Source: Cliona cf. orientalis
Taxonomy: Eukaryota > Porifera > Demospongiae > Clionaida > Clionaidae
Direction of reading: 5' to 3'
Length of the DNA stretch: 64,000 bases
Assembly: GCA_963930775.1 (NCBI GenBank)
Contig: OZ005695.1
Coordinates: 7,688,001-7,752,000, forward strand
Shown piece after piece: positions 29,498 through 63,866 of the stretch (its first letter is position 1; every line of letters starts with the position of its first letter). Below the pieces are notes generated by a model. The model was not told the origin of the DNA and did no database searches. It saw nothing but the letters and a program-made list of their open reading frames with translations. The position numbers and the translations under genes were made by a program.

Positions 29498-29883
29498 GAG
29501 ACAACTTAAGCAGGAGATAGGCAACTGCGAGCCTGGGGGACCAGTCTCCTTAAATATTACTGATTTATTCTAATTAGATAACACCAACAGTTCTTGAGAC
29601 TCACCATGAAATGATTATGGCCCTGTCTGTGGTACTCTCAGTCAAGTTAGTGGTCACCTAAGGTAGTTCAGTAGTGCGGTTGATGCAGTAGAGACGGCGG
29701 TCCACGAAAATAGTGAGAAGCGATGCAGGCCGTTGCGCCGCACCAAAGGCAGCCTCCTGAACTCTATCCCTTCGCCAACCGAGGGCTTACGGGCTTCTGG
29801 GCCGACTGCCTTGCTGCACTGTAGGCCACTCCAAAGTCGCTGGGTCTCCAGGGGAGAATGTCTTACACGGTCGAGAGTACATG

Positions 29884-32520: not shown

Positions 32521-32521
32521 T

Positions 32522-35008: not shown

Positions 35009-35161
35009 AGACCTACGGCGGAAGAGACCTACGTACGTATTAAACGTCGCGCCATACTGCGCATGCGCATGGCGCTGTCCTTTCCGCGGCTTTGCTAATA
35101 CCTAATAAAACTTGGAATTCTACTTGCGACGTACAATCTAGCGACTATTGAGCTGCATAAC

Positions 35162-36785: not shown

Positions 36786-37677
36786 TGAACTTTCGATCGT
36801 AATTTGCATGTATGACTTAGTGTGATTTATGACTTTTGCCACAAAATTGATGATTTTAGATCCTACTTGTAACAAATACTGTGATCTGATTGGTTAAACT
36901 GAAGTATCTATCCTTCATAGAAAACAAGAAGGAACTCAGGTTCAGTGAGAATTGGTGCACCCTCACTCTAAAATTAGTAATACTCATTACTGTGGCCTAT
37001 GATTATAGTCAAGCTGGCTATAAGCTGTAGGCCCTGATAGACTCATGCATAATAAGTTCTGCATGAAATGCCAGTGTACCCACCCATGCAAGAGTATATA
37101 AATAATATTATTATCAGTGATTCTAATCTTGTTCCACCCCATCCCTTGAGAGTATTCCTCCCCTTAATTGCAAAGATTATTTAGTCTCAGGCACATGACT
37201 GTGAATTTCACTGAGAATTTCAATTGGAATGCCACATCAATGATTAATAATAATACTCTTGATAATATGAATTCTTCCATAACTAGAGCTCTGTAGAGCA
37301 CATACCCCGCGCGCACATTGTGCAATCTATATAGCGAGTTACTTTTGTGTGCATGGCTATAATTTTGTGAATTTCAGAAAATTAATGGAAGTGCTGCTTA
37401 ATTGTATTGTAGCTATCAGGGGTCCCTACATCAGATCTAGACTACTAGGAGATATGAACTAATATTTTATTGTAATAGTATAGCCGTGTTACATTATGAT
37501 TTGGTTCCATAGGGCTACAGATTTGAGCTTCCTCAGCGGATGCAGATAGACTATAGATTTCATGAGCATTATCAATTTCGACAATCTTTACCAGTCATAA
37601 TATTATTCTTGGCTACTTAGTTGTGCGCATGACATGATGAGCAGAAAACACATTGGCATGCATTATGCATTGAGTAG

Positions 37678-40447: not shown

Positions 40448-40600
40448 AGACCTACGGCGGAAGAGACCTACGTATGTATTAAAGGTCGCGCCATACTGCG
40501 CATGCGCATGGCGCTGTCCTTTCCGCGGCTTTGCTAACACCTAATAAAACTTGGAATTCTACTTGCGACGTCCAATCTAGCAACTATTGAGCTGCATAAA

Positions 40601-42181
40601 ATGGATAAGCTACTGATCTTCGCTGTGTTGTTTGTGCTATTAGCTCCAGCGATCGTTCACGCCGCCGACAGTCAAACTTGCTCCGGGGCGGAACTTGACG
40701 CAGACGTGCTGATTCTCGGAGGTGGAATCGCTGGCGTTGCGGCCGCCAAGACACTGCACGATAGAGGAGTCACTGATTTGCGTATCCTCGATGCTGAGGC
40801 CCAACTCGGCGGTCGTCTTCGCGCCGTGCAGGTGCCTCTAGCGGGATCCGACCCAATAACGGTAAATTCTGGCGCGAATTTTATTCAGGGATATGACCCG
40901 CTTCAACCAGAACTTCATCCGCTCGTGCAGATCCTAAATGCACCAGCATGTGGTGGCATTGAAGGCTCTTTTGTGGATTACGATTCGATAGTCGTGCGAA
41001 ATTCCCAAGGAGTGGACATATCTGATAGCCCCATTCTGCGATACGATGACTATGAGGCTGCAGCAACTGCTTCGGAGACTCTCAGAGAGATGCACCAGAA
41101 TGCCGGCCTACCAGACATCTCTGTGCGTCAGGCACTCTATGAAGGTGGATGGACACCAGGAAATTCTACAGATGAATGGGTAGAGTGGCTAGAGTTTGAT
41201 TATTGCTTTGCCGAGCCAACAGATAATTCATCCCTAGTCTATGGACCTCCATTGCCAACCTACAGTGATTTTGGCAATCCCAATAACACGGGAGATTTTC
41301 TGGTGACGGACAGGGAGGGCTTTGTCAAGGTTGTGCGCTGCCTTGCAGATGAGTTTCTGGTGGAAAACGATCCTCGCATGCACTTAAACACACGAGTGAC
41401 ACGGATTGAGTGGAGCAACGATTGTGTCTGTGCTACAACCACAGTGGGGGGCAGTTCAACTCGCACATTCTGTGGAAGATATGCAATCGTGACATTCAGT
41501 ATTGGCGTTTTGCAGCAGCTTCAAGAGGCCGGTTTAGAATTCAGTCCTCCTCTACCAGAGGAAACAGTGAATGCAATCAATACTATTCGCATGGCACACT
41601 ATCTAAATATTATTGTGGAGTGGGACACCAGATTTTGGGAGCAGGATATTGTGTTTGTTGGTTATGTGAATGAGACAGATGGTCGATATTTCCCCCTTTT
41701 GCACGAATTGGTGCACGTAGAGAATGCTACTGTTGTATACCTGGTTATCACAGACACTCTAGCCGATCGCATCCTTCGCCAAACCGAGGAACAGAACAAG
41801 CAAGAAATCGTTACCGTTTTCAACAATGCATACAATCTTACACTTCAGCCATCCAATATTCTCTCTCTCTTCTTGCCCGATTGGGACATCAATCCACTGT
41901 ATTTCGGTTCATACTCTAATAATCCTGTTGGAGTGACCAATGAGACATTTGCAACCCTCCTCAAACCTCTCAGAGGTAGACTTTTCTTTAGTGGCGAGGC
42001 TCTCAGCCTAAACTATTCTGGATTCGTTCATGGAGGATATCTCAGTGGAATTGATACTGCTAATTATATTGTCACTGAAATACAAAGTAGTGGCGAAAAG
42101 GGAATTACTAAGGCATTTATATTTAATTTGTGTCTCTTGATGATCACTACTGTTATCGTTACATGGACTCTTGTACTTTAA
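40601..42181 (+). CDS. Secreted flavin amine/polyamine oxidase-like protein, type B (B3, intact)
   Basis: Intronless, 526 residues, same architecture as A1. Signal peptide MDKLLIFAVLFVLLAPAIVHA, Rossmann GGGIAG, GGRLRAV, and C-terminal FAD motif RLFFSGEALSLNYSGFVHGG. Differences from type A at key places: NFIQG instead of NWFHG (Q96 where type A and animal PAOs have His), Asp-type RILDAEA instead of IIEA at the end of strand 2, and F475 retaining the aromatic-cage position. N336 replaces the flavin-site lysine, as in A1. C-terminal tail FNLCLLMITTVIVTWTLVL suggests GPI anchoring or a membrane helix. The expected reaction is oxidation of an amine with H2O2 release, unproven. The promoter holds GCGCATGCGC at 40498-40507. 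A 1.7 kb transposon lies 57 bp after the stop. Confidence 0.88.
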   Translation: MDKLLIFAVLFVLLAPAIVHAADSQTCSGAELDADVLILGGGIAGVAAAKTLHDRGVTDLRILDAEAQLGGRLRAVQVPLAGSDPITVNSGANFIQGYDPLQPELHPLVQILNAPACGGIEGSFVDYDSIVVRNSQGVDISDSPILRYDDYEAAATASETLREMHQNAGLPDISVRQALYEGGWTPGNSTDEWVEWLEFDYCFAEPTDNSSLVYGPPLPTYSDFGNPNNTGDFLVTDREGFVKVVRCLADEFLVENDPRMHLNTRVTRIEWSNDCVCATTTVGGSSTRTFCGRYAIVTFSIGVLQQLQEAGLEFSPPLPEETVNAINTIRMAHYLNIIVEWDTRFWEQDIVFVGYVNETDGRYFPLLHELVHVENATVVYLVITDTLADRILRQTEEQNKQEIVTVFNNAYNLTLQPSNILSLFLPDWDINPLYFGSYSNNPVGVTNETFATLLKPLRGRLFFSGEALSLNYSGFVHGGYLSGIDTANYIVTEIQSSGEKGITKAFIFNLCLLMITTVIVTWTLVL

Positions 42182-44467: not shown

Positions 44468-45671
44468 TAGTTAGAAAGTGAATGGGATAAGGTCTCTTTA
44501 CAGACAAATTGGAAACTTGAGCCTTGCACCAAACCGAGTGATAGTGTATTGCAAACCCCTTCTACCTCCAACAATGCACCCAACTTAACTGCTGCATCCA
44601 CAACCCTTCCCAATCTCGAGTCGAACGATAGTGCTCAAGCTCCAGCAGCAATCGAAGATGTGCAATCCCAGTCTACCACCCCATCTCAACTTGACATAAA
44701 CCATTCTTTTTCAATGGCTCAGTCACCACACCAGGTGACGTAACTGCTCCCCCTCCATCAACCTCCTGCATGCCCTACTTGCCTAAATTTTCTGTTCTGT
44801 ACTTTAATGCTCGCAGCCTATTGCCCAAAATTGACCACCTCCGTGTTGCCTGTGCTCTATACACACCCGACATTATCTGTATCGTAGAAACGTGGACCAA
44901 TGTTGATATTCTAAACAGTGAATTACGTATTCAGGACTATGAAATAATTCGCCTGGATCGAAATAGACATGGTGGTGGAGTGCTAATTTATGTTAATACA
45001 TGCTATAGCCATAACATTTTGTATTCTGGTTCACCTGACCTTGAACTCTTAATTGTTTCTATCTTTACAACAGTAACACCCATAACTATAGCCCTGTTTT
45101 ACAGACCTCCCAGTAGCCCTTATGGTATTTTTGATACTCTTTTAACCACTCTGTTTACCCATGTTGAAACCCTGTTACTTTCTAATTTTGTACTCATGGG
45201 AGACTTTAATGTTAATTTTTTAGACAATACTCACCCTTTGTTTTCTAAATTGCATACGGTTACTTCTAGCTTCTGTCTCACACAAGTTGTTACTTCACCC
45301 ACCCACTGCTCTAATTCTCTCATTGACTTAATTTTTCTGTCGTCACCTGAGGCCTTATCATCATGCGAAACTCTGCCCCCACTAGCCAACTCCGACCACA
45401 ATGGGATCCTGTTCTCGCTACAAAATCTCAAGACTAAGCCGGTCCCTATAAGAAGGGCTAAGAAAATCTGGAGATACGATTATGCGGACTTCAATTTGGC
45501 CCTCGATATGATTGCCGAGATCGACTGGGACTCAGTCTTTCTGAATGCAGACGTGGATGAGTGCTGGTCAACATGGCGCTCCATATTCATGCGTATTATG
45601 GACTTGTGCATACCAAGCTCGACTCTAAAGCCGCGAAAGAATCTACCCTGGTTAACAAAACCCATCATTCA
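44468..45671 (+). mobile_element. Non-LTR retrotransposon 2, 5' piece (end of ORF1, endonuclease)
   Basis: 5'-truncated element inserted in the type A upstream flank. An ORF1 remnant ends at 44743; ORF2 opens at 44770 with YFNARSLLPKID, ICIVETW, GGGVLIY, YRPPSSP, LMGDFNVNF and NSDHNGILFSL, an APE-type endonuclease. Coding stops matching the element after LTKPII at 45671, where the inverted duplication begins. 45188-45671 is repeated exactly at 51857-52340, from which the same ORF2 continues. Confidence 0.85.
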
Positions 45672-47214
45672 TTGGTGTGTGCATATGTTTAGTGCCGCAG
45701 TATGGCGCGACGTTTAATACGTACGTAGGTCTCTTCCGCCGTAGGTCTATTTAACACCGAAGTGGCAGTCCTGCAAGGACTGAACCTTGTGGCACTCCTG
45801 GGACCTATCTTATTTAGATTCTATGACATTGGTTTGTGTGGCATCCAACTATCAAGTTGAAATACAGTGCTCTTTTAATAGCAGAGGGTCATCCCTAGGA
45901 GAAAAGTATGGAAACTCTGAGGCATCTTGGTATCTTGATTACTTTAAACCGGAGTTGGTCCTCAGGCCATCACATCAAAGGCTTGCTGCTGAAACAGGCT
46001 GGTAGCTATGCTAACTATATATAGGATTTGGGTAAGTTTAAAAACTCACAATAATTGAGTACCCTGAAGGCACAGTATGTTATATTAATCTGATTTCTCC
46101 TCTCCTGGAGTATGGCAGACAAAAAAACCCCGTTAATCGTCTTGAATCCATATAAACGTTTACTACAAAGATATAATACAGTGTCACTAAATGGTAGAAC
46201 GCCAAATCCTACGAGGTATGACTACAGTTGGACTCAGGAAGAGGAGAAGCCTCTCCTAAACAGTGTCCCTTCTACAAGGGCAATCTGTGTTTTCTGGGCG
46301 CTCCTGAATGTACCTATCACTTTTCCCACTAATTCCACTTGTTTTAATCATAGTCTCTCTCTGGAAGTGCCATTTTCTCCGTCTGACAATATTTCTTACT
46401 CACATAATGTAATAATAATAACTATGGTGATCCCTCAATAATATTATGTTACCAAGTCATCAAATAATATTATTATGCATGCAACCCTGCTAGGGACACC
46501 ACTTCTGAATTAATGGCACAAATACACGCACAAATTGTGCAGTATAGGAGTTACGGACATGCAGATAAACATTTTGACTGTATATTCACCATCAGATTAT
46601 TATTTATAGATACCATGAAATTTGATAAAGTCTAGTTGGTCTTGGTATGTTCTCATTTGAATAATAAATAATTATGACAGTTGGTGTGTGCATATGTTTT
46701 TTTATAGTATCTTCCGGTGGTTGATTATTGCGAGGGGATACGATAACATACCGTATGGCGGGTAATTTTCGTGGGGTGCTAATTTTCGTTATTTTCGTGG
46801 ATGACTTGGCAGTCACGAAATTTTCCCACCCGCGAAAATTGGTGATATGATACTATGCGAGTCCATGATGATGGGCGTGGCCACAAACATCGTGGCAGCG
46901 CGGCCAACACTTTCCAGTATTAGCAAGCAACAGTAGCCATTGTCATCCAGCTGATAGCTATAGCTATAAGCTATAATATACATTATTCATAACAACAATG
47001 AAAATTCAATAAGATTTCATGGCAAGCCCACACTATCTATTAGCTATACCGATCAAGTTTCACAATCATGTGACATTCATGAGCAGTCCATATATGCATA
47101 CCAGTGGCAACAAGAGCTCATAATAGTATTATCTTAATACTATCCTTGGTAAACCTGATATTATTATAATTAACGAAAATACCACTAAATTTGCAGTACG
47201 CAAGCTATACATAG

Positions 47215-48030
47215 TTTTTTTTTTTTTTTTTTTTTTTCTATAATACTTTATGCAACACATAGGTATGCAGTGGATACATAGATAGTTAAGACAACTAATC
47301 AAGTATGTACCCAGAAACTATGTAAAAGTATAATAAAACGAAAAGAAAAGCAGACACACAAGTTAATTATGAGGCATTGAAATGCTATTTTTGAAAGACG
47401 CGAGAGTCTGCATTGTGACCTGATCTTCGTTCAGCAAATTCCACGCTCGGATTGAGCTTGGAACAAAGGAGTGAAAATAGTAGTTTGTTCGAGCAAACGG
47501 ACATTGTAGAGTGTCTGATCTTGCGAGCCTACTGGAGTGGGAGGGTTGTGTGATGAAGATATCCTCAGGGAAATAGCAGAGGCCATGAACAATCTTGAAG
47601 ACTTGTGCAAGTTTCAGGTGAAGTCGCCGCTCACTAAGTTTTGGTACATCAGTGATGCTTACCAACTGCTCATAACCCAAGTTCCACTGTCGTGAGATCA
47701 ACTTGAGGGCAAACTTCTGTACTGCTTCCAGCCTATCAGTATCGCCTTGTAGGTAGGGGTCCCAGACTTGCGATGCATATTCCAAGTGAGGGCGGACTAG
47801 GCTAATGTACAGCTGCTTAAGGGTGGCTGGATCAACATTCTCATAAAATTGCCTATACAGTAGGCCTAGAATCCTTCTTGCTTTAGTGCAAAGTTCAGAA
47901 ATGTGATCTGACCAAGAAAGATTCCTGCTGAAGAGCACACCAAGGTATTTAAAGATCTCCACCTCTTCTAGCTCTGACCCACACAAGTAAAGAGACACCG
48001 ATCTGGTTGTTAAAGAAAGATTCCTGCGTT
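47215..48030 (-). mobile_element. 5'-truncated non-LTR fragment after A4 (left arm)
   Basis: Mirror of 57212-58027. Encodes the reverse-transcriptase C-terminal region (for example YLGVLFSRNLSWSDHI and RPHLEYASQVWDPYLQG) and ends in poly(T) on this strand. See the right-arm entry for the insertion context. Confidence 0.8.
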
Positions 48031-48036
48031 TGATCA

Positions 48037-50167
48037 TTAAACCACAAGAGTCCAGATGATAACAGCACTAGCAATCAAAATCCAGTTGATTATCTTAGCA
48101 AGCACTCCACTGCCTTGTATTTCAGTAAGAACATCATTAGTGGTATCAATTCCACTGAAATAATCCCCGTGCACTGATGACGAATACCTTTCGCTAGTAG
48201 CTTCACCACTCAAGAAGAGCCTACCTCCAAGAGGTGAACGAAGGGTTGTAAATGTCTCACTGGTAACTCCAACAGGTCTGTTTGAGTATGAACCAGAAAA
48301 CAGTGGATTAATATCCCAATCGGGCAAGAAAAGAGTGCGAATATCGGATGGCTGAAGGGCCATATTATAAGCATTGTTGAAAACGGCAATGATTTCTTGC
48401 CTGTTCTGTTCCTCGGTTTGGCGAATGATGCGATCAGCTAGCCTGTCTGTAACAGTCATATATACGACTGTGGCACCTTGTATGTGCGTCAATTCTTGTA
48501 CGATGGGGAAATAGCGACCGTCACTTTCATTGACGTAACCAATATACATGATATCCTGCTCCCAAAATCTGGTATTAAACTCCACAACGATATTCAGATA
48601 GTGTGCCATGCGAATACTATTGATTGCATGCATTTACCTTTTCTGATGGAAGTGGAGGATCAAATTCTAAACCAGCCACTTGAAGCTGCTGTAAAACCCC
48701 AATGGTGTGTGCACACGAGATCAATTCTTATGTGATCAACTCCCCCGTGATCAATTCTTACAAGAGCAATTTTGTATGATGTCAACTATCAGGACATCAA
48801 CTTTCATAGGATCAACTCTATAAGAATTCAACTCAACTCCTCAAATCAACTAGGTATTGATATGTCGACACACACACCGATATGTCAGTGATCCTATCTT
48901 TGAGTAATTAGTGCTTGCCAAAGTCAACATACCGTATAGCGGGAAACTTTCGAGGGAGAAAACCTTCACGAATTTTGCGATTTTTCCGCCATCCACAAAA
49001 GTTTTCTCCACGAAATTCTAGGCATGCCACACCCATTATGCGACCAGTTTTGCCAATCCGCGAAAGCTATACGGTATACCCTCAGGTATTGAGTAGTGAG
49101 CTTTTCTATTTTGACCTTGTCTTTGAGTAATTAATGTTTGCCAAAGGTCAATATGGATTGACAAGTATTGAGTAGTGATGTTTTCTATTTGACCTTGTCT
49201 TTGAGCAATTAGTGCTTGCCAAAGGTCAATATGTATCGATGGGTATTGAGTAGTGAGCTTTTTCTATATAAGCCAGTGACATCCTGAGTATCATTTTCTG
49301 CAATGGCTCAGTTTCTCGATACCAACCGAGGAGGAAGCTTGACCCTTCATTTTGAGGGGTATATCTATACGAAGGTAAGGGATAGTGCAAATGGCTTCCA
49401 ATTCTGGAGATGCCAAAACCGCAAGGCTGCCATGATGTCTAGCAAGAGCCACTTCAGAGGGACCCACCAAATCCAACTCAGACCACCACTCAACTAGCTA
49501 TGGCATGAATGAGGAAAGGGCCAGAGATGAGAGCACCTCCACCTACGATGACCAATTTGAGGCACTTAGCCAAGAGCAGAACTCTACGGATGTGCTTTAA
49601 GCTATGTGCCTATAGTTATTTCCCTTATTTTTCTGAGATGATTTAAAAGCAGTTAGTTCTATGGAAGTTTATTTCCTGATAGTTGACTTCACGAAAAGTT
49701 CAATGCTCTTATAAGAATTGATCATGTGGGAGTTGATGTCACAAAAGTTGATCTCGTGTGAGTAAATCACCCCAATTATACTGAATATCACGATTGCATA
49801 TCTTCCACAGAATGTGCGATTTGAATTGCCCCCTACAAATTATGGCTGTAACACAGACACAATCGTTGCTCCACTCAATCCGTGTCACTCGTGTATTCAA
49901 GTGCACGCGAGGATCATTGTCCATGAGAAACTCATCTGCAAGGCAGCGCACAACCTTGGCAAGCTGTATTGAGCCTCGATTATCAGAAAATCAGTGACAT
50001 CTCTATTGTGTAGCGCTCTGGCGGCTGCAAGACCCGCGATCCCACCTCTAAGAATCAACACGTCCGCGTCGAGGTTCGACTCACGGAGCACGTCTGATTG
50101 TCGGCGGCATAGACAATCGCTGGAGCGGATAATAGCAACGATACGAACAGGTGAGGAGCTTGATCAT
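48037..50167 (-). pseudogene. PAO-like type A pseudogene (A4), inverted copy
   Basis: Mirror image of 55075-57205: frameshifted signal-peptide region, ~500-bp internal deletion, and a 1065-bp transposon at 48704-49768. The last 198 codons remain open. It is a duplicate made by the inversion, not an independent gene. Confidence 0.85.
48704..49768 (-). mobile_element. FLYWCH-carrying non-autonomous transposon (left arm)
   Basis: Mirror of 55474-56538, flanked by ACCCCAAT (48696-48703, 49769-49776). The FLYWCH-like frame is 49303-49497. One SNP versus the right arm changes HFEGY here to HYEGY there. Confidence 0.75.
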
Positions 50168-50484
50168 AATTTCTATTGATAGCGATCAAGGTGTGAAGAA
50201 AATTTAATGAGCTGTAACAGTGTAAACAACATTCACTCGTCCCCAGACCCCACCCCCGCGGAGGGTGGGGTCTGCCACGGGGATGAGACTACATACACTG
50301 CGCGTGCGCGAGGGATACAAACTCGACGACCCCTACCCACATGAGTTCGAGCATGCGCAGTTAAACAGTAGCTCTATCATAACTAAAATTAATGCTGCAG
50401 AGGGAGCAGGCAGTCTGGCATATTTAATATACTTACTATGACACCAGGTCTGGATCCGGAAAGGGCAGAACCACTAGCCTTGTT

Positions 50485-50868
50485 TTTTTTTTTTTTTTTT
50501 CAAGGCGACCTGAACACTAAGCAGAAAAAAAATTGTCCAAAAACCACCATATAATCGAGCTGGGTGCATAGTGGAACCATACAATGCAAGCAGGCAGCCT
50601 AAATTTCAATTTTATCAAAAAATTGGTAAAGGTCGTCACGTTTATGTGCGCGCGTGGCCCCGCCCCTCACGTAGCGCGTGGGCGGAAACATTGCAAACGC
50701 ATGGCTTCCCTGTACAAACATATGGGGAAACTTTAAAGGGCCGTAACTTTGATTCTAAGGCGTGAATCAAAATTCCTGAAGGTCAAATCTCTGCATTCGA
50801 TCCATTCTGCGCGCCGGTGCAAAAATTATGTCCCCAAGTGCTCCCAGTTCCCCCCTGAATTAATTAAT
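50485..50868 (-). mobile_element. Poly(A)-tailed insertion of unknown type (left arm)
   Basis: Mirror of 54374-54757; see that entry. Confidence 0.4.
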
Positions 50869-51844
50869 TAAAAATCTTTTTTTTTTTTCTACTTAGTGTT
50901 TAATTAGTGTTTAATTTTTGTCTATAATATTTTCTGATGCTTGAAAAATATACATCAGTGGTGTACATGAATAGCTAAAGCTAATACTGGCATGACACCA
51001 TACAAATAACTAGTAAGGTAAATAATATTATATTAATAACATAAATTAATAAGTTTGGGTTATAATAACTGTTTAAATGTGTAAAATGACAGGGCAGTTT
51101 GAGTATTTGTAGATTGAGAATTCCATAAAGAGATGGAGTGAGGAAAGAAAGAGTACAGAAACTGAGAAGTATTTGCTCTGATATTCTCTAATGTGAAGTC
51201 AGTGACCTGCCTAGTGTTGTAGGCAGGTGATTTGACTTGGACAGGAGCTGACTGGCAATCTGTCAAACCATGTACGATTTTGTAGAGATGGCAAAGTTTT
51301 GCTTGTTCACGACGCTCAGCAAGTGATGGGGTTTCTGCTTGAACTAATAGCTCTTGGTAAGGGCAGGACCAATCTCTGAAGCACATGCGCAGAGCAAATT
51401 TTTGTGTTTGTTCGAGAGACTGGATGTCCTTGGCAAGGTATGGGTCCCATACAACAGACGCGTACTCGAGGTGAGGTCGAATAAAAGTCTTGTACAGTCT
51501 GAGTGCAGTTTCAGGCGCACAGAGATGAAACTGGCGATACAAGAGACCTATGAGTCTGCGAGTTTTAGAGCAAATGGTGGTTATATGAGATGACCACGAC
51601 AGATCACATGTTAGTTGGATACCCAGATACTTGACAGACTTAACTTGTGTTAAAGCAGTGTTCGAATCGATATAGAGAGTTGGTGGTGGGATAGAACGAA
51701 AACGCTTACGAGATATTAACATGAAGCAGCATTTGTTGGAGTTAAGTTGGAGGTGGTTGCCAGCCACCCATGTCGAAATGGCAGTAATGTCCGACTGCAG
51801 TACGATGTAGCACTGCAGTAATGTCCGACTGCAGTACGATGTAG
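50869..51844 (-). mobile_element. Non-LTR retrotransposon 2, inverted 3' fragment
   Basis: Reverse-transcriptase C-terminal part and 3' UTR, mirror of 53443-54373. Here the frame through GNHLQLNSNKCCFMLISRKR is intact, showing the undamaged version of the segment that lost 11 bp in the right arm. Confidence 0.8.
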
Positions 51845-51856
51845 TACTGCCCAGTG

Positions 51857-54373
51857 TTGTACTCATGGGAGACTTTAATGTTAATTTTTTAGACAATACT
51901 CACCCTTTGTTTTCTAAATTGCATACGGTTACTTCTAGCTTCTGTCTCACACAAGTTGTTACTTCACCCACCCACTGCTCTAATTCTCTCATTGACTTAA
52001 TTTTTCTGTCGTCACCTGAGGCCTTATCATCATGCGAAACTCTGCCCCCACTAGCCAACTCCGACCACAATGGGATCCTGTTCTCGCTACAAAATCTCAA
52101 GACTAAGCCGGTCCCTATAAGAAGGGCTAAGAAAATCTGGAGATACGATTATGCGGACTTCAATTTGGCCCTCGATATGATTGCCGAGATCGACTGGGAC
52201 TCAGTCTTTCTGAATGCAGACGTGGATGAGTGCTGGTCAACATGGCGCTCCATATTCATGCGTATTATGGACTTGTGCATACCAAGCTCGACTCTAAAGC
52301 CGCGAAAGAATCTACCCTGGTTAACAAAACCCATCATTCAGCTGATGAGGAAAAGGAACACGCTATTTCGTGCCGCCAGCAAGACGAAGACGGAAGCTGC
52401 TGTAGCAAAATACAAATGTGTAAGAAACCGAGTTGTTGCCATGCTACGGACAAGTAAATCTAAATACTTTCGCAATCTAGGTCACTCGTCTCAAAAAGAC
52501 TTTTGGAAAGCAGTCAAGCTAATCCGGAGACAAGAAAGCTCAATTCCGGCCCTGAAGAACGGACCAACTCTTGCGACCTCCAACTCGGACAAAGCGTTAC
52601 TACTTAACTTACAGTTGTTTCAACGACTCCTTCTGTCCTCTGACCGAACCAACCCGCCTCGATCCAAGCAAATGTCCCCCGCACCTCCTCTGCACTGAAG
52701 AAGAGGTCACGGACCTACTGCTGAGCCTCGATCCTGCAAAATCCACCGGACCCGATAAAATATCGGCCATTATGCTGCGGTCAACCGCTGTGCTTATCGC
52801 ACCGAGTCTGACGAAACTATTCAACTTGTCGATCGCGAGCAGGCGCTTTCCGACGGACTGGAAGTGCGCTCGGATCACACCGATCTTCAAGTCTGGTGAC
52901 TCCGCTTTAGCCTCTAACTATCGCCCAATTTCCATATTGCCCATCGTGAGTAAAGTGCTCGAACGCCATATCTATACACTTCTGTTCGATTTCCTGGCTA
53001 CTAACTCTCCAATATCCCTTCACCAATGGGGATTCATGCCCAACCGCTCAACTGTTTCCGCCCTCTGCACACTGATTCACGACTGTCTGAAGTCACTCGA
53101 CGATGGTAATGAAATCTGTTCGGTGTATTTCGACCTCCGCAAAGCGTTTGACACTGTACCCCACGTTCCTCTTCTGAATAAGCTAACAAACCTTCAACTT
53201 GACAAACACGTGCTAACATGGATTCAAAGCTATCTTGCGAACAGATCACAAGTTGTTGCTGTAGGAGGGGATCAATCTTCTAGCGTGCCAGTTATCTCAG
53301 GGGTACCACAGGGGTCTGTCTTGGGACCCCTCCTCTTCCTCGTATATATCAACGATGTCACCTCTCTCATGTCTGCTCCTAGCAAACTAACGCTATTTGC
53401 AGACGACATGACGCTCTACCGCACAATCTCCTCACCGGCAGACTACATCGTACTGCAGTCGGACATTACTGCCATTTCGACATGGGTGGCTGGCAACCAC
53501 CTCCAACAAATGCTGCTTCATGTTAATATCTCGTAAGCGTTTTCGTTCTATCCCACCACCAACTCTCTATATCGATTCGAACACTGCTTTAACACAAGTT
53601 AAGTCTGTCAAGTATCTGGGTATCCAACTAACATGTGATCTGTCGTGGTCATCTCATATAACCACCATTTGCTCTAAAACTCGCAGACTCATAGGTCTCT
53701 TGTATCGCCAGTTTCATCTCTGTGCGCCTGAAACTGCACTCAGACTGTACAAGACTTTTATTCGACCTCACCTCGAGTACGCGTCTGTTGTATGGGACCC
53801 ATACCTTGCCAAGGACATCCAGTCTCTCGAACAAACACAAAAATTTGCTCTGCGCATGTGCTTCAGAGATTGGTCCTGCCCTTACCAAGAGCTATTAGTT
53901 CAAGCAGAAACCCCATCACTTGCTGAGCGTCGTGAACAAGCAAAACTTTGCCATCTCTACAAAATCGTACATGGTTTGACAGATTGCCAGTCAGCTCCTG
54001 TCCAAGTCAAATCACCTGCCTACAACACTAGGCAGGTCACTGACTTCACATTAGAGAATATCAGAGCAAATACTTCTCAGTTTCTGTACTCTTTCTTTCC
54101 TCACTCCATCTCTTTATGGAACTCTCAATCTACAAATACTCAAACTGCCCTGTCATTTTACACATTTAAACAGTTATTATAACCCAAACTTATTAATTTA
54201 TGTTATTAATATAATATTATTTACCTTACTAGTTATTTGTATGGTGTCATGCCAGTATTAGCTTTAGCTATTCATGTACACCACTGATGTATATTTTTCA
54301 AGCATCAGAAAATATTATAGACAAAAATTAAACACTAATTAAACACTAAGTAGAAAAAAAAAAAAGATTTTTA
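51857..54373 (+). mobile_element. Non-LTR retrotransposon 2, remainder of ORF2 and 3' end
   Basis: Endonuclease end (MGDFNVNF, NSDHNGILF) in the first ~580 bp, then reverse transcriptase: KSTGPDKISAIMLRSTAVL, NYRPISILPIVSKVLERHIY, VYFDLRKAFDTVPHVPLLNK, SGVPQGSVLGPLLFLVYIND and the catalytic FADD. Two frame breaks: near 52610 (before SCFNDSFC) and an 11-bp deletion at about 53510, after GNHLQ. The final frame runs 53520-54182, with a 3' UTR and short poly(A) near 54350. Jockey/CR1/L2-like. Not functional as it stands. Confidence 0.85.
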
Positions 54374-54757
54374 ATTAATTAATTCAGGGGGGAACTGGGA
54401 GCACTTGGGGACATAATTTTTGCACCGGCGCGCAGAATGGATCGAATGCAGAGATTTGACCTTCAGGAATTTTGATTCACGCCTTAGAATCAAAGTTACG
54501 GCCCTTTAAAGTTTCCCCATATGTTTGTACAGGGAAGCCATGCGTTTGCAATGTTTCCGCCCACGCGCTACGTGAGGGGCGGGGCCACGCGCGCACATAA
54601 ACGTGACGACCTTTACCAATTTTTTGATAAAATTGAAATTTAGGCTGCCTGCTTGCATTGTATGGTTCCACTATGCACCCAGCTCGATTATATGGTGGTT
54701 TTTGGACAATTTTTTTTCTGCTTAGTGTTCAGGTCGCCTTGAAAAAAAAAAAAAAAA
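54374..54757 (+). mobile_element. Poly(A)-tailed insertion of unknown type (right arm)
   Basis: About 380 bp between the end of LINE 2 and the type A flank (AACAAGGCTAGTGGTTCTGC, also at 32226). Ends in about 18 A, has no open frame, and contains GACGACCTTTACC. A SINE or a retrocopied fragment is possible. Confidence 0.4.
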
Positions 54758-55473
54758 AACAAGGCTAGTGGTTCTGCCCTTTCCGGATCCAGACCTGGTG
54801 TCATAGTAAGTATATTAAATATGCCAGACTGCCTGCTCCCTCTGCAGCATTAATTTTAGTTATGATAGAGCTACTGTTTAACTGCGCATGCTCGAACTCA
54901 TGTGGGTAGGGGTCGTCGAGTTTGTATCCCTCGCGCACGCGCAGTGTATGTAGTCTCATCCCCGTGGCAGACCCCACCCTCCGCGGGGGTGGGGTCTGGG
55001 GACGAGTGAATGTTGTTTACACTGTTACAGCTCATTAAATTTTCTTCACACCTTGATCGCTATCAATAGAAATTATGATCAAGCTCCTCACCTGTTCGTA
55101 TCGTTGCTATTATCCGCTCCAGCGATTGTCTATGCCGCCGACAATCAGACGTGCTCCGTGAGTCGAACCTCGACGCGGACGTGTTGATTCTTAGAGGTGG
55201 GATCGCGGGTCTTGCAGCCGCCAGAGCGCTACACAATAGAGATGTCACTGATTTTCTGATAATCGAGGCTCAATACAGCTTGCCAAGGTTGTGCGCTGCC
55301 TTGCAGATGAGTTTCTCATGGACAATGATCCTCGCGTGCACTTGAATACACGAGTGACACGGATTGAGTGGAGCAACGATTGTGTCTGTGTTACAGCCAT
55401 AATTTGTAGGGGGCAATTCAAATCGCACATTCTGTGGAAGATATGCAATCGTGATATTCAGTATAATTGGGGT

Positions 55474-56538
55474 GATTTACTCACACGAGATCAACTTTTG
55501 TGACATCAACTCCCACATGATCAATTCTTATAAGAGCATTGAACTTTTCGTGAAGTCAACTATCAGGAAATAAACTTCCATAGAACTAACTGCTTTTAAA
55601 TCATCTCAGAAAAATAAGGGAAATAACTATAGGCACATAGCTTAAAGCACATCCGTAGAGTTCTGCTCTTGGCTAAGTGCCTCAAATTGGTCATCGTAGG
55701 TGGAGGTGCTCTCATCTCTGGCCCTTTCCTCATTCATGCCATAGCTAGTTGAGTGGTGGTCTGAGTTGGATTTGGTGGGTCCCTCTGAAGTGGCTCTTGC
55801 TAGACATCATGGCAGCCTTGCGGTTTTGGCATCTCCAGAATTGGAAGCCATTTGCACTATCCCTTACCTTCGTATAGATATACCCCTCATAATGAAGGGT
55901 CAAGCTTCCTCCTCGGTTGGTATCGAGAAACTGAGCCATTGCAGAAAATGATACTCAGGATGTCACTGGCTTATATAGAAAAAGCTCACTACTCAATACC
56001 CATCGATACATATTGACCTTTGGCAAGCACTAATTGCTCAAAGACAAGGTCAAATAGAAAACATCACTACTCAATACTTGTCAATCCATATTGACCTTTG
56101 GCAAACATTAATTACTCAAAGACAAGGTCAAAATAGAAAAGCTCACTACTCAATACCTGAGGGTATACCGTATAGCTTTCGCGGATTGGCAAAACTGGTC
56201 GCATAATGGGTGTGGCATGCCTAGAATTTCGTGGAGAAAACTTTTGTGGATGGCGGAAAAATCGCAAAATTCGTGAAGGTTTTCTCCCTCGAAAGTTTCC
56301 CGCTATACGGTATGTTGACTTTGGCAAGCACTAATTACTCAAAGATAGGATCACTGACATATCGGTGTGTGTGTCGACATATCAATACCTAGTTGATTTG
56401 AGGAGTTGAGTTGAATTCTTATAGAGTTGATCCTATGAAAGTTGATGTCCTGATAGTTGACATCATACAAAATTGCTCTTGTAAGAATTGATCACGGGGG
56501 AGTTGATCACATAAGAATTGATCTCGTGTGCACACACC
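55474..56538 (+). mobile_element. FLYWCH-carrying Mutator-like non-autonomous transposon
   Basis: 1065 bp flanked by ATTGGGGT (55466-55473, 56539-56546). The ends are long, imperfect inverted repeats made of degenerate 15-bp tandem units: ATCAACTTTTGTGAC, ATCAACTCCCACATG, ATCAATTCTTATAAG at the left and the inverse at the right (CACACGAGATCAATTCTTAT). A minus-strand frame at 55939-55745 resembles a FLYWCH zinc finger, a domain known to ride with Mutator-like transposases. A family 3 MITE is nested at 56168-56310. No transposase is present. Confidence 0.75.
55745..55939 (-). CDS. FLYWCH-like domain fragment inside the transposon
   Basis: 64 codons: RGGSLTLHYEGYIYTK, then NGFQFWRCQNRKAAMM and an H-x4-H pair. 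The G-x-x-Y-x-Y ... F-W-R-C core fits FLYWCH fingers, but the second zinc-binding cysteine position is Ala, so a folded finger is doubtful. Mirrored at 49303-49497 with Phe for Tyr. Whether it is translated is unknown. Confidence 0.5.
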   Translation of the reverse strand: MAQFLDTNRGGSLTLHYEGYIYTKVRDSANGFQFWRCQNRKAAMMSSKSHFRGTHQIQLRPPLN

Positions 56539-57211
56539 ATTGGGGTTTTACAGCAGCTTCAAGTGGCTGGTTTAGAATTTGATCCTCCACTTCCATCAGA
56601 AAAGGTAAATGCATGCAATCAATAGTATTCGCATGGCACACTATCTGAATATCGTTGTGGAGTTTAATACCAGATTTTGGGAGCAGGATATCATGTATAT
56701 TGGTTACGTCAATGAAAGTGACGGTCGCTATTTCCCCATCGTACAAGAATTGACGCACATACAAGGTGCCACAGTCGTATATATGACTGTTACAGACAGG
56801 CTAGCTGATCGCATCATTCGCCAAACCGAGGAACAGAACAGGCAAGAAATCATTGCCGTTTTCAACAATGCTTATAATATGGCCCTTCAGCCATCCGATA
56901 TTCGCACTCTTTTCTTGCCCGATTGGGATATTAATCCACTGTTTTCTGGTTCATACTCAAACAGACCTGTTGGAGTTACCAGTGAGACATTTACAACCCT
57001 TCGTTCACCTCTTGGAGGTAGGCTCTTCTTGAGTGGTGAAGCTACTAGCGAAAGGTATTCGTCATCAGTGCACGGGGATTATTTCAGTGGAATTGATACC
57101 ACTAATGATGTTCTTACTGAAATACAAGGCAGTGGAGTGCTTGCTAAGATAATCAACTGGATTTTGATTGCTAGTGCTGTTATCATCTGGACTCTTGTGG
57201 TTTAATGATCA

Positions 57212-58027
57212 AACGCAGGAATCTTTCTTTAACAACCAGATCGGTGTCTCTTTACTTGTGTGGGTCAGAGCTAGAAGAGGTGGAGATCTTTAAATACCTT
57301 GGTGTGCTCTTCAGCAGGAATCTTTCTTGGTCAGATCACATTTCTGAACTTTGCACTAAAGCAAGAAGGATTCTAGGCCTACTGTATAGGCAATTTTATG
57401 AGAATGTTGATCCAGCCACCCTTAAGCAGCTGTACATTAGCCTAGTCCGCCCTCACTTGGAATATGCATCGCAAGTCTGGGACCCCTACCTACAAGGCGA
57501 TACTGATAGGCTGGAAGCAGTACAGAAGTTTGCCCTCAAGTTGATCTCACGACAGTGGAACTTGGGTTATGAGCAGTTGGTAAGCATCACTGATGTACCA
57601 AAACTTAGTGAGCGGCGACTTCACCTGAAACTTGCACAAGTCTTCAAGATTGTTCATGGCCTCTGCTATTTCCCTGAGGATATCTTCATCACACAACCCT
57701 CCCACTCCAGTAGGCTCGCAAGATCAGACACTCTACAATGTCCGTTTGCTCGAACAAACTACTATTTTCACTCCTTTGTTCCAAGCTCAATCCGAGCGTG
57801 GAATTTGCTGAACGAAGATCAGGTCACAATGCAGACTCTCGCGTCTTTCAAAAATAGCATTTCAATGCCTCATAATTAACTTGTGTGTCTGCTTTTCTTT
57901 TCGTTTTATTATACTTTTACATAGTTTCTGGGTACATACTTGATTAGTTGTCTTAACTATCTATGTATCCACTGCATACCTATGTGTTGCATAAAGTATT
58001 ATAGAAAAAAAAAAAAAAAAAAAAAAA
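57212..58027 (+). mobile_element. 5'-truncated non-LTR fragment inserted after A4
   Basis: About 815 bp inserted in the A4 3' flank; A1 shows the uninterrupted order (GATCAAACTATGTATA). Encodes the reverse-transcriptase C-terminal region (KYLGVLFSRNLSWSDHIS, RPHLEYASQVWDPYL) in an open frame to 57879, then a 3' UTR and a poly(A) run of about 23. Related to, but distinct from, the LINE 2 end. Duplicated target sequence is at most AAAC. Confidence 0.82.
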
Positions 58028-59494
58028 CTATGTATAGCTTGCGTACTGCAAATTTAGTGGTATTTTCGTTAATTATAATAATATCAGGTTTACCAAGGAT
58101 AGTATTAAGATAATACTATTATGAGCTCTTGTTGCCACTGGTATGCATATATGGACTGCTCATGAATGTCACATGATTGTGAAACTTGATCGGTATAGCT
58201 AATAGATAGTGTGGGCTTGCCATGAAATCTTATTGAATTTTCATTGTTGTTATGAATAATGTATATTATAGCTTATAGCTATAGCTATCAGCTGGATGAC
58301 AATGGCTACTGTTGCTTGCTAATACTGGAAAGTGTTGGCCGCGCTGCCACGATGTTTGTGGCCACGCCCATCATCATGGACTCGCATAGTATCATATCAC
58401 CAATTTTCGCGGGTGGGAAAATTTCGTGACTGCCAAGTCATCCACGAAAATAACGAAAATTAGCACCCCACGAAAATTACCCGCCATACGGTATGTTATC
58501 GTATCCCCTCGCAATAATCAACCACCGGAAGATACTATAAAAAAACATATGCACACACCAACTGTCATAATTATTTATTATTCAAATGAGAACATACCAA
58601 GACCAACTAGACTTTATCAAATTTCATGGTATCTATAAATAATAATCTGATGGTGAATATACAGTCAAAATGTTTATCTGCATGTCCGTAACTCCTATAC
58701 TGCACAATTTGTGCGTGTATTTGTGCCATTAATTCAGAAGTGGTGTCCCTAGCAGGGTTGCATGCATAATAATATTATTTGATGACTTGGTAACATAATA
58801 TTATTGAGGGATCACCATAGTTATTATTATTACATTATGTGAGTAAGAAATATTGTCAGACGGAGAAAATGGCACTTCCAGAGAGAGACTATGATTAAAA
58901 CAAGTGGAATTAGTGGGAAAAGTGATAGGTACATTCAGGAGCGCCCAGAAAACACAGATTGCCCTTGTAGAAGGGACACTGTTTAGGAGAGGCTTCTCCT
59001 CTTCCTGAGTCCAACTGTAGTCATACCTCGTAGGATTTGGCGTTCTACCATTTAGTGACACTGTATTATATCTTTGTAGTAAACGTTTATATGGATTCAA
59101 GACGATTAACGGGGTTTTTTTGTCTGCCATACTCCAGGAGAGGAGAAATCAGATTAATATAACATACTGTGCCTTCAGGGTACTCAATTATTGTGAGTTT
59201 TTAAACTTACCCAAATCCTATATATAGTTAGCATAGCTACCAGCCTGTTTCAGCAGCAAGCCTTTGATGTGATGGCCTGAGGACCAACTCCGGTTTAAAG
59301 TAATCAAGATACCAAGATGCCTCAGAGTTTCCATACTTTTCTCCTAGGGATGACCCTCTGCTATTAAAAGAGCACTGTATTTCAACTTGATAGTTGGATG
59401 CCACACAAACCAATGTCATAGAATCTAAATAAGATAGGTCCCAGGAGTGCCACAAGGTTCAGTCCTTGCAGGACTGCCACTTCGGTGTTAAATA
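58028..59494. other. A-to-B spacer of unit 4
   Basis: Homologous to the spacers of the other units. Contains a family 3-like half element (58400-58492) and antisense open frames at 59130-58801 and 59455-59237, the best-preserved versions of the conserved antisense frames. Confidence 0.6.
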
Positions 59495-59646
59495 GACCTA
59501 CGGCGGAAGAGACCTACGTACGTATTAAACGTCGCGCCATACTGCGCATGCGCATGGCGCTGTCCTTTCCGCTGCTTTGCTAACACCTAATAAAACTTGG
59601 AATTCTATTTGCGACGTACAATCCAGCGACTATTGAGCTGCATAAA

Positions 59647-61224
59647 ATGGATAAGCTACTGATCTTCGCTGTGTTGTTTGTGCTATTAGCTCCAGCGATC
59701 ATTCACGCCGCCGACAGTCAAACTTGCTCCGGGGCGGAACTTGACGCAGACGTGCTGATTCTCGGAGGTGGAATCGCTGGCGTTGCGGCCGCCAAGACAC
59801 TGCACGATAGAGGAGTCACTAATTTGCGTATCCTCGATGCTGAGGCCCAACTCGGCGGTCGTCTTCGCGCTGTGCAGGTGCCTCTAGCAGGATCCGACCC
59901 AATAACGGTAAATTCTGGCGCGAATTTTATTCAGGGATATGACCCGCTTCAACCAGAACTTCATCCGCTCGTGCAGATCCTAAATGCACCAGCATGTGGT
60001 GGCATTGAAGGCTCATTTGTGGATTACGATTCGATAATCGTGCGAAATTCCCAAGGAGTGGACATATCTGATAGCCCCATTCTGCGATACGATGACTATG
60101 AGGCTGCAGCAACTGCTTCGGAGACTCTCAGAGAGATGCGCCAGAATGCCGGCCTACCAGACATCTCTGTGCGTCAGGCACTCTATGAAGGTGGATGGAC
60201 ACCAGGAAATTCTGCAGATGAATGGGTGGAGTGGCTTGAGTTTGACTACTGTTTTGCCGAGCCACCAGATAATTCATCCCTACTCAATGGACCTCCACTA
60301 CCAACCTACGGTGATTTTGGAAATCCTGATAATACAGGAGATTTTCTGGTGACGGACAGGGAGGGCTTTGTCAAGGTTGTGCGCTGCCTTGCAGATGAGT
60401 TCCTGACAGACAACGATCCTCGTGTGCACTTGAACACACGAGTGACAAGGATTGAGTGGGGCAACGATTGTGTCTGTGCTACAGCCACAGTGGGGGGCAG
60501 TTCAACTCGCACATTCTGTGGAAGATATGCAATCGTGACATTCAGTATTGGCGTTTTCCAGCAGCTTCAAGAGGCCGGTTTAGAATTCAGTCCTCCTCTA
60601 CCAGAGGAAACAGTGAATGCAGTCAATAGCATTCGCATGGCACACTATCTAAATATTGTTGTGGAGTGGGACACCAGATTTTGGGAGCAGGATATTGTGT
60701 TTGTTGGTTATGTGAATGAGACAGATGGTCGATATTTCCCCATAATGCACGAATTGGTGCACGTAGAGAATGCTACTGTTGTATACATGGTTATCACAGA
60801 CACTCTAGCCGATCGCATCCTTCGCCAAACTGAGGAACAAAACAAGCAAGAGATCGTTGCTGTTTTCAATAATGCGTATAATCTTACACTCCAGCCATCC
60901 AACATTCTTTCTCTCTTCTTGCCAGATTGGGATATCAATCCTCTGTATTTCGGTGCATACACGAATATTCCCGTTGGAGTGTCAAATGAGACATTTGCAG
61001 CCCTTCGTAAACCTCTGGGAGACAGACTTTTCATCAGTGGCGAAGGCACTAGCCGAAACTATTCTGGATTCGTTCATGGAGGATATTTTAGTGGAATCGA
61101 TACTGCTAATGATGTCCTTGCCGAAATACGAAGCAGTGGTGCGAAAGGAATTCTTACTAAGGCAATCAATTTGTGCCTCTTGATGGCCACTACTATTGCC
61201 ATCACATGGAATCTTGTGTTTTAA
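59647..61224 (+). CDS. Secreted flavin amine/polyamine oxidase-like protein, type B (B4, intact)
   Basis: Intronless, 525 residues, very close to B3. Signal peptide MDKLLIFAVLFVLLAPAIIHA, GGGIAG, GGRLRAV, NFIQG, YLNIVVEW and RLFISGEGTSRNYSGFVHGG. It shares with B3 the Gln in NFIQG, the Asn at the flavin-site lysine position and the kept aromatic Phe. Its C-terminal half (DGRYFPIMHEL, VSNETFAALRKPLGDRLF) is closer to B2 than to B3, so B genes may have exchanged segments by gene conversion. Hydrophobic tail INLCLLMATTIAITWNLVF. The promoter palindrome GCGCATGCGC is at 59544-59553. It is the last gene of the cluster before BTAF1 exon 21. Confidence 0.88.
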   Translation: MDKLLIFAVLFVLLAPAIIHAADSQTCSGAELDADVLILGGGIAGVAAAKTLHDRGVTNLRILDAEAQLGGRLRAVQVPLAGSDPITVNSGANFIQGYDPLQPELHPLVQILNAPACGGIEGSFVDYDSIIVRNSQGVDISDSPILRYDDYEAAATASETLREMRQNAGLPDISVRQALYEGGWTPGNSADEWVEWLEFDYCFAEPPDNSSLLNGPPLPTYGDFGNPDNTGDFLVTDREGFVKVVRCLADEFLTDNDPRVHLNTRVTRIEWGNDCVCATATVGGSSTRTFCGRYAIVTFSIGVFQQLQEAGLEFSPPLPEETVNAVNSIRMAHYLNIVVEWDTRFWEQDIVFVGYVNETDGRYFPIMHELVHVENATVVYMVITDTLADRILRQTEEQNKQEIVAVFNNAYNLTLQPSNILSLFLPDWDINPLYFGAYTNIPVGVSNETFAALRKPLGDRLFISGEGTSRNYSGFVHGGYFSGIDTANDVLAEIRSSGAKGILTKAINLCLLMATTIAITWNLVF

Positions 61225-62179
61225 TGAATTTCCATTTAACCAAAGAATTATAGTTTGCATGCATCTCATTCAATAGTATTTTTATGATTCATGGTTATTG
61301 CTTAGTATGATTTATGACTTTTACCACAAAGTTTATGATCGTAGTAATATTGTGATATTGCTAAAATGAATGGTATCAAACATGCATGTATTAGTTACTA
61401 TGCGTGGATAGCTCTTGCAATAATATATACTTTTCATGTCTCAACATAGTAAACACAAGAATTATAATTGTACGTATATGAAACACACCACTTTTGTTTC
61501 ATACATACAATAGAGGGAAGGCAACACATCTTTTAAGATTTTCGTCGTAAATCACACTAAGGATAAAGCTACCGTATTTCTTCTAAAAATTTGGCCCTTC
61601 TAATTATTCGGCACCCTTTACCAAATGAATGAATATAGTCTCTAATTTTTCGGCAAAGGTCGTCATGCATATATGTTATAAACGGGAATGGAATGCACAC
61701 GCAGACAGAATGTTGAATATTAACCTCTAAAAATTTGGCAAAGCTAAAGCAATATTATTATTTTCATGCCGAATTTTTAGAAGAAATACGGTATAATAAG
61801 TTTCAATACTCTATCTTATGACGATACATGACAGTGTTTGTGTGGACGTGACCTTGGGTGTGTGTTTGAAACACGTACCAGATTAATAGCTGCTGCAACT
61901 GAGACCGATTCCTAGCTACAAAGTCTTTAATCTTGACATGCATGATTGAATTCCTGCTAATGATGTCATTAATTTTGGTTGCCAGGAATTCATTATAATA
62001 TCACACTCAGCTGGTTATCACTTAGAACTTCAATACCATTAGATTTTGTGAAGCTCGAGATTTCAAAATGCCTAAATAGGCTGTCAAATTTATCGCTTTA
62101 CGGGAATGAATGCCATTTTTGCAGCGAATATCCTTGGATAGGATGATATCATAGTAAGCATTCCTTTGCTTCCATCCAG
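61225..62179 (+). other. End of BTAF1 intron 20
   Basis: Type B 3' flank to about 61330, then unique sequence with a TA-flanked MITE (61572-61791) and the acceptor TTCCATCCAG before exon 21. No gene seen. Confidence 0.6.
61572..61791. mobile_element. Palindromic MITE, family 5 (CCGTATTTCTTCTAAAAATT ends)
   Basis: 220 bp, flanked by TA: CCGTATTTCTTCTAAAAATT at the left, AATTTTTAGAAGAAATACGG at the right. Contains AAAGGTCGTCATG, a variant of the GACGACCTTTACC motif. Confidence 0.78.
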
Positions 62180-62398
62180 AAACTTGCTTCAAAATGGACC
62201 AGCTGGTTGTTGGACATGTGCAAAGATCAAGCCCCATGTCCCAATTCCAAAATCGTTAAGAACTTATGCAACTTTCTCTGCTGTGATCCACAGCATACTC
62301 CAACAATAGTACCAAAGCAAGAGGATACAAGCAGCAGACCAGGGGAGGTATGGGAATGGAATAATGGAATTATCACACTCATCAAGCAGCAACAAAAG
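62180..62398 (+). CDS. BTAF1: BTAF1 exon 21
   Basis: 73 codons, phase 0 at both ends. Reads KLASKWTSWLLDMCKDQA, then PCPNSKIVKNLCNFLCCD and NGIITLIKQQQK. The PCPNSKI-KNLC and GIITL segments are hallmarks of BTAF1 just after the region encoded by exon 20, so the gene continues across the 41-kb intron. The linker between the two segments is shorter than I remember in the human protein. Confidence 0.88.
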
Positions 62399-63866
62399 GT
62401 ACGGAGCTAAGTCAGTTAGCAAATACTATAATAATGTTATAAGCATTATATTATTGTCAGCCTCTCTCTTTCTCTCCCTTTTCCATTGCTTCCACTCCGT
62501 GCAAATCTCTCATATTAAGCATCATAATAACAATTGCAGTTTAAGCATGGTAACCTCAATTTCTCGTATTAACACATGCCTAGTGTTGATGATCTACACA
62601 TTTTAACAGCTCTGGTAAAGCATAATATTATAGCTAAGGGCTTACAGTACATTCCAGATCAAGCGTATGTCACCACTCTTATAGTTAATGAATTCTTTCC
62701 ATGATTGGTCACACACAGTATTCTGTATATTTTGTACCTTCTCCCAAGATACCTATGTACATGTGAGATGATACATCAGCCCGGCCCAACAAGCCGTCTG
62801 AGTGCAGGTATCATTTGAGGTAGTGTGGCCGGGAAGGACCTTTAATGTGACTACTGAAAATATTAATTATTCCCTTCCACCATGCATGCCTTACATTTGG
62901 TGTTGGAAAAACACTGATATACTCCTTACCAATCAAGCCATAGTGTTTTTTTTTACATTGAACTGGCAGTTGTTTGGATCATGGCTTCAGCCATCCATCC
63001 CCATGGCTCAGAAACGGCAGGCTAGATCTAAGGATCTCTTTTCTCATTCTTCAACCAAGATTTTCCTATTTTAGAATTTACAGCATTCTTCCTTTTATAT
63101 TGATGTCAATATCTCGTAAGGAGAAGTATTAACACCAGCTCAGCTCAATAAAGTCTACCACTTTACCCTCTTGATAGGATTGCGTGACTAAAAGCATCGT
63201 TAAGCATCACCAGTTAAGTAGAAATGAGGTGTTCTCTAAGGTACTTGGTACTATGGTATACCAGTGCTCCACCATACAGGCACTGTACACTGATGAAATC
63301 ATTGTGGTCTAGGGTAGCTCTGTTTTGTTAGTTTTTGAACATGACTTGACCGTGGATGCTCTACTGGAAAATGGTCTCAGTGACATTAGATGTTGTTACC
63401 ATAGTAACAAATACCAAAGTACTTTTATCTGAGTATTTCATAGATTATTATTTAATACCCGTAAAATTAATCATTGCATAGTATGAAAGTTTACTCTAGT
63501 ACAGAGCAGATGTTCTTAGTTAATAAAGATTTGTATCACAGAGGAAGATACATGACTATATTTGCTTGCATAGACTACACTACACAATTGGATGTTGGTA
63601 ATGTGTATATTGCCTTTGACCACAATGGCTTCGACACTTCTTATAAGTCTTCTCAGTTAATTAAATAGTTTATTAAGTCTATGTGGCCTCACGATCTCCA
63701 TGGTTACCATGTAGGCAGAAATATAAGCGGGAACTCAATTTGGCCGTTGGCCCCAAATCAACATTGCAAAAAATATTGGTAAATTTATAAATTGGCGGTT
63801 CGGCATGGCATCACCGTACATATTATTATTGTGTTTGTCTATTGTTGAGCTATGTTGTATTTATAG
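62399..63866 (+). other. BTAF1 intron 21
   Basis: About 1.5 kb, AT-rich. Contains a decayed family 2 MITE near 63712-63830 (AGCGGGAACTCAATTTGGCC, AATTGGCGGTTCGGCATGG). Open frames such as 62802-63074 have no splice support or recognisable domain. Confidence 0.6.

Follow-up and report, generated by a model that had tools for sequence, protein, structure and literature searches.

Complex rearrangements that arise by template switching are best known from human disease alleles. Two human PLP1 cases, BAB8920 and BAB8934, are described as DUP-NML-INV/DUP rearrangements, with replicative template switching as the origin favoured by the authors; in the same study, junctions of other cases are reported to contain templated insertions that stem from iterative switches (PMC6902434). 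Breaks in yeast can acquire short foldback templated insertions, most of them given as about 5-34 bp long (PMC11724301). In Drosophila simulans, newly born hairpin-RNA loci are described as young inverted repeats near related genes; some of the new Drosophila loci lie within existing transcription units, and one is reported to have arisen when the region 5' of a gene was partly duplicated (PMC10317233). Here we analyse a long palindrome in the sponge Cliona cf. orientalis, contained in a stretch of 64,000 nucleotides (contig OZ005695.1, positions 7,688,001 to 7,752,000), hereafter the window, to which all coordinates refer unless a contig is named.

Self-comparison of the window revealed two segments, 45696-51810 (left arm, minus strand) and 53443-59546 (right arm, plus strand), that are reverse complements of each other from end to end. 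Their alignment comprises 6,115 columns with 2 mismatches and 1 gap, corresponding to 99.79% identity, and the pair is the top-scoring self-match of the window, identity aside. A 6.1-kb repeat at such identity far exceeds chance. The spacer between the arms, 51811-53442, measures 1,632 bp. A preliminary description, which had claimed a near-identical inverted duplication of about 6.1 kb with a spacer of about 1.6 kb, is borne out in this respect. It had counted one SNP and one 11-bp indel; base-by-base alignment recovered the indel, at 51735-51745 and present in the left arm only, together with two SNPs rather than one, which read on the left-arm strand as T at 49352 (left) against A at 55890 (right), and A at 51120 (left) against G at 54122 (right). 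Outside the single indel the arms are 99.97% identical. The constant coordinate sum of 105242 proposed for the mirrored features applies outside the 11-bp indel, but gives way to 105253 at the inner ends. Three features had gone unnoticed: a 484-bp exact direct repeat, filler sequence at both junctions, and the displacement of only the left arm.

The direct repeat consists of 45188-45671 and 51857-52340, both on the plus strand, which are identical over all 484 bp; the first copy ends 24 bp outside the left arm, and the second lies inside the spacer. We refer to this repeat as segment a, to the unduplicated stretch 52341-53442 (plus strand) as segment b, to the right arm as segment c, and to the sequence following it as d. 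The order observed is then a, inverted c, a, b, c, d, in which a and c each occur twice, b occurs once, and the extra c is inverted.

The stretch 45672-52340 forms an insert of 6,669 bp that splits a single LINE retrotransposon (LINE E), and both flanks join as one continuous LINE when the insert is left out. The 5' part of the LINE is in place on the upstream side of the insertion point, at 44469-45671 (plus strand), with endonuclease-domain matches on the ORF 44695-45717 (PF03372, E 2.9e-12; PF14529, E 1.9e-9). The second copy of segment a covers the LINE endonuclease region and beyond, segment b carries the reverse-transcriptase region (PF00078, E 3e-29, on the ORF 52556-53536), and the 3' part lies in the right arm at 53443-54348 (plus strand). 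A genome search for related LINEs listed 33 matches, the best eight of which were given loci; one was the present locus, and the remaining seven siblings, L002-L008, were fetched. All seven cross the join gap-free, and their alignments show 97.1-98.9% identity. L002 and L003 alone match the LINE E copy in length at the 5' end, being continuous with it from 44469, and the other five begin 61 to 1,173 bp further in; at the 3' end, L002 aligns up to 54348 and most other siblings up to 54327. The ancestral order a b c is thus uninterrupted, siblings at other loci being continuous over both a-b and b-c (7/7), while a paralogous unit is continuous over c-d. In the unduplicated middle, at 52608, the LINE E copy lacks 8 bp found in all seven aligned siblings, and because of the resulting frameshift it is presumably dead.

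The inner border of the right arm falls inside the LINE, which is unbroken across 53442/53443, and its outer border falls inside an amine-oxidase unit, 58200-61235 (plus strand), which is unbroken across 59546. The paralog of this unit, at 33758-36797, is continuous and 92% identical. The left arm is out of its native context at both ends, and 45696 marks the limit of its match to this paralog. Since both borders of the right arm are native and both ends of the left arm are broken off, these contexts identify the right arm (segment c) as the source and the left arm as a new inverted copy.

Filler sequence is present at both junctions. At junction 1, the 24 bp at 45672-45695 (plus strand) comprise 19 bp matching segment c at 58561-58543 (minus strand), followed by AGTGC, for which no source was found. 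At junction 2, the 46 bp at 51811-51856 (plus strand) consist, in order, of CACT, a 31-bp match to 53472-53442 (minus strand), a stretch with an overlapping 7-bp inverse match (TACTGCC), and CAGTG, with about 9 bp lacking a convincing source. The 31 bp represent the inner end of the adjoining arm, copied a second time. When each filler was shuffled 1000 times, preserving base composition alone, the longest match to the window was 15 bp for junction 1 and 16 bp for junction 2, and 0/1000 shuffles reached the observed 19 or 31 bp. Full-length matches to each junction occurred at one genome place, the present locus, among the 13 (junction 1) and 25 (junction 2) matches listed for the best candidates. 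Inspection of the junction contexts by eye revealed no clear microhomology at the join points, and the microhomology part of MMBIR therefore gains no positive support from them.

The whole structure is held within an intron of 41,015 bp, 21165-62179 (plus strand), which begins with GT at 21165 and ends with AG at 62179. A profile search with PF12054 (DUF3535) yielded three genome matches, all at the present locus, at consecutive profile positions and above the family cut-off: profile positions 270-332 at 20964-21152, with one TGA inside the matched stretch, 334-402 at 62171-62404, and 419-447 at C7:7752024-7752110, just past the window end. PF12054 had no match in any of 14 control genomes. 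We take this family to mark BTAF1/Mot1, and the host gene is accordingly read as this transcription-factor gene, which fits the reading of its other exons; we further assume the gene to be essential. Neighbouring PF12054 parts flank the arms, in agreement with the original placement of the palindrome inside an intron. Elsewhere between putative exons of the BTAF1/Mot1-like gene, 6721-7731 and 12864-13904 are diverged (76%) direct copies bearing membrane-protein-like frames on the minus strand.

The 41-kb intron also appears to contain nested flavin amine-oxidase genes, apparently intronless and in direct orientation, whose translations read as putative secreted proteins. This family comprises three long frames, 21961-23616, 40538-42181 and 59584-61224, plus several fragments. 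PF01593 was found on the first and third frames and on the fragments 32602-33003 and 56609-57205, and the second frame was assigned to the family by DNA similarity. Taking the first ATG of the last frame, at 59647, as its start, the outer right border lies 101 bp before it, so that the outer end of the copy holds upstream sequence and none of the coding sequence of the last amine-oxidase gene. Within the right arm, an inserted element at 55465-56538, whose terminal inverted repeats measure about 105 bp and are 79% alike, interrupts an amine-oxidase fragment; the counterpart of this fragment at 32228-33359 is unbroken. The arm also contains a second LINE-like fragment at 57231-58027 (plus strand), 5'-truncated and with an A run at its end, which is 100% identical to a copy on C4 among the matches listed; its translation reads as a LINE 3' end, and it gave no Pfam match. 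A repeat of about 430 bp adjoins the 3' end of LINE E at 54325-54762 (and 50480-50917); it has many genome copies at 97-100% identity, some of them in tandem, and also adjoins this LINE at C7:8024947 and C18:2509235. Outside the arms, a separate long LINE at 25124-29505 (minus strand) encodes endonuclease and reverse transcriptase in a single frame of 1001 aa; the frame next to it, of 463 aa, matches the SAND domain (PF01342, E 4.6e-9).

The relative age of the duplication can be judged from the LINE. Among 2,906 sites compared with the seven siblings, 4 bear substitutions private to the LINE E copy, within the range of 0 to 11 for the siblings themselves. One of these, at 54041, is common to both arms and therefore predates the duplication, which in turn places the duplication after the LINE insertion. 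Another, at 54122, occurs in the right arm only and is one of the two arm SNPs, and the remaining two lie in the unduplicated middle. On this evidence, the left arm was made after the LINE had inserted, with few changes since. At all three sites where the arms differ, the derived state is in the right (source) arm, and the left arm agrees with other genomic copies: at 49352 with the one other copy compared (1/1), and at 51120 and the 11-bp site with 12/12 listed loci each, of which ten are independent, L002 and L020 being one place and L005 and L015 another. The 11-bp loss is flanked by short direct repeats and looks like slippage. That all three differences fall in one arm is not significant under equal ageing (2 x 0.5^3 = 0.25); this mildly odd bias would likewise agree with a copy templated by the homologous chromosome.

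We consider it very probable that the structure resulted from a recent template-switch accident during replication repair. The order a, inverted c, a, b, c, d needs two long-range template switches with inversion. In the proposed pathway, the copying machinery, while passing through the LINE inside the intron, would lose its template at 45671 (equivalent to 52340), make short contact with a segment several kb distant, on its opposite strand, and copy 19 bp there. It would then restart at 59546 and copy 6.1 kb backwards to 53443, followed by a slip back, the recopying of 31 bp, and a jump to 51857, where the normal direction would be resumed. The direction of synthesis adopted here is a convention of the model, as sequence cannot give direction, and on the other strand the steps would run in reverse. 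Both junctions would stem from one event, and the mechanism would be replicative, of the FoSTeS/MMBIR type, with the joints perhaps closed by Pol-theta-like end joining. FoSTeS/MMBIR-type copying is taken as the mechanism because the PLP1 cases have the DUP-NML-INV/DUP order and yeast breaks carry local and inverse fillers of similar size; at the present locus, this segment order accompanies an uninterrupted ancestral order read from the siblings and the paralogous unit, and the fillers include 19 and 31 bp templated from nearby sequence. The pattern thus corresponds to DUP-NML-INV/DUP as produced by template switching, a known mechanism of which this is a well-resolved new example.

The preliminary description had offered three origins, namely a recent inverted duplication, arms kept alike by gene conversion, and a fold-back assembly error. 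The first is retained, in the form of a template switch in which 484 bp of the spacer were duplicated as well. An assembly or library artefact, in which the left arm came from chimeric or fold-back molecules or from an assembly path that took a wrong turn in repeats, is unlikely, despite the repeat-rich region, the near-identity of the arms, and a curation record of the probable source assembly in which 201 misjoins or missing joins were fixed and 81 haplotypic duplications removed (PMC12639293). The reason lies in the second, unlike junction, the filler at both and the 484-bp direct repeat: a simple fold-back would have a single apex and would leave no additional direct repeat, whereas here the two junctions differ and each has filler matching nearby sequence. 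The joined sequences also share no repeat at the joint able to mislead an assembler, the arms carry three real differences with the ancestral state in the copy, and the window is free of N. The probable source assembly, odCliOrie1.1, is reported to have been built with hifiasm from 4.11 million HiFi reads totalling 38.47 Gb, a depth of about 90x, with the alternate haplotype deposited (GCA_963930685.1) and a k-mer completeness of the primary haplotype of only 60.5% (PMC12639293). By our own division of these figures the reads average about 9.4 kb, and could span an arm plus both joints. Somewhat less probable than an artefact is a pair of separate events, an end-joining inverted insertion of c into the LINE and an independent small duplication of a. 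The sequence alone gives the two junctions no separate timing, and breaks closed by end joining are described as also yielding local templated fillers (PMC11724301). However, the junctions look equally young, both fillers match the same segment c, the 31 bp at junction 2 repeat the inner end of the arm next to it, and one event is simpler.

Gene conversion keeps the arms alike in known palindromes, and the identity of 99.97% outside one indel could be read as its effect on an older palindrome. We regard this as very doubtful. The structure can be no older than the LINE, because the LINE occurs in each arm and itself contains the left arm as an insertion, and this LINE copy is young, with only its 4 private substitutions. 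Both arms further contain the second LINE-like fragment that is 100% identical to the C4 copy among the matches listed, and the two copies of the 484-bp direct repeat likewise show no difference. With the same young LINE and one private mutation in both arms, gene conversion is not needed to explain their likeness. There is hardly any prospect, finally, that the locus arose by insertion of a Foldback-like mobile element whose inverted termini are very long. Two 6.1-kb inverted arms do flank a short middle, but the arms are a patchwork of pieces from unrelated repeats together with a gene flank, both ends of the right arm lie in native context, and among the listed matches to the outermost 1,050 bp of the arm the best third one reaches 93% (40 of 1,205 candidates scored). 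A Foldback-type transposon would be expected in multiple copies with discrete ends; each junction was instead matched full-length once among the matches listed, and the outer right border lies inside a longer unit. Because each junction was matched full-length only here, among the matches listed, the structure is not considered a mobile unit.

The structure is most likely without function. It is conceivable, though improbable, that it represents a hairpin-RNA locus at birth, in which the host pre-mRNA would fold into a predicted 6.1-kb near-perfect stem with a 1.6-kb loop and give rise to siRNAs. If such a hairpin were diced before or despite splicing, the siRNAs would be directed against LINE E, the second LINE fragment and, via 56539-57214, the amine-oxidase family, and a silencing locus would then have originated in a single template-switch event. 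In the sponge Amphimedon, endo-siRNAs have been reported, but the unique ones are described as thought to come from antisense pairs and not from hairpins (PMC6211395), which counts against this reading.

No published description of the present structure was found in the open-licence papers searched, which leaves its absence unproven. As a young natural case from a sponge, the locus allows the ancestral order, the source arm, the origins of the fillers and the relative age to be read from one assembly, and it suggests that a long palindrome can arise at one stroke within an intron of a probably essential gene. Like the PLP1 DUP-NML-INV/DUP cases as described, it combines one duplicated segment, a single-copy middle and a second segment duplicated in inverted orientation, with two junctions (PMC6902434). 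It differs from them in being far smaller (484 bp, 1.1 kb and 6.1 kb), in coming from the genome of a wild animal and not from a disease allele, in having no clear microhomology by eye, and in that its order is read from one assembly. The fillers resemble the reported yeast insertions in being local, templated and partly inverse sequence at joints, here of 19, 31 and 7 bp (PMC11724301); the yeast insertions stand alone, whereas these flank a kb-scale inverted copy. In common with the D. simulans hairpin-RNA loci, as far as these are described, the structure is a young, intronic inverted repeat whose outer end duplicates sequence 5' of a gene (PMC10317233), but its arms are mostly transposon sequence with no whole gene, and it is known here from DNA alone. 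Set beside these systems, the locus appears to be a genuine and well-preserved scar of a known rearrangement type, in a new setting and more complex than was first thought.
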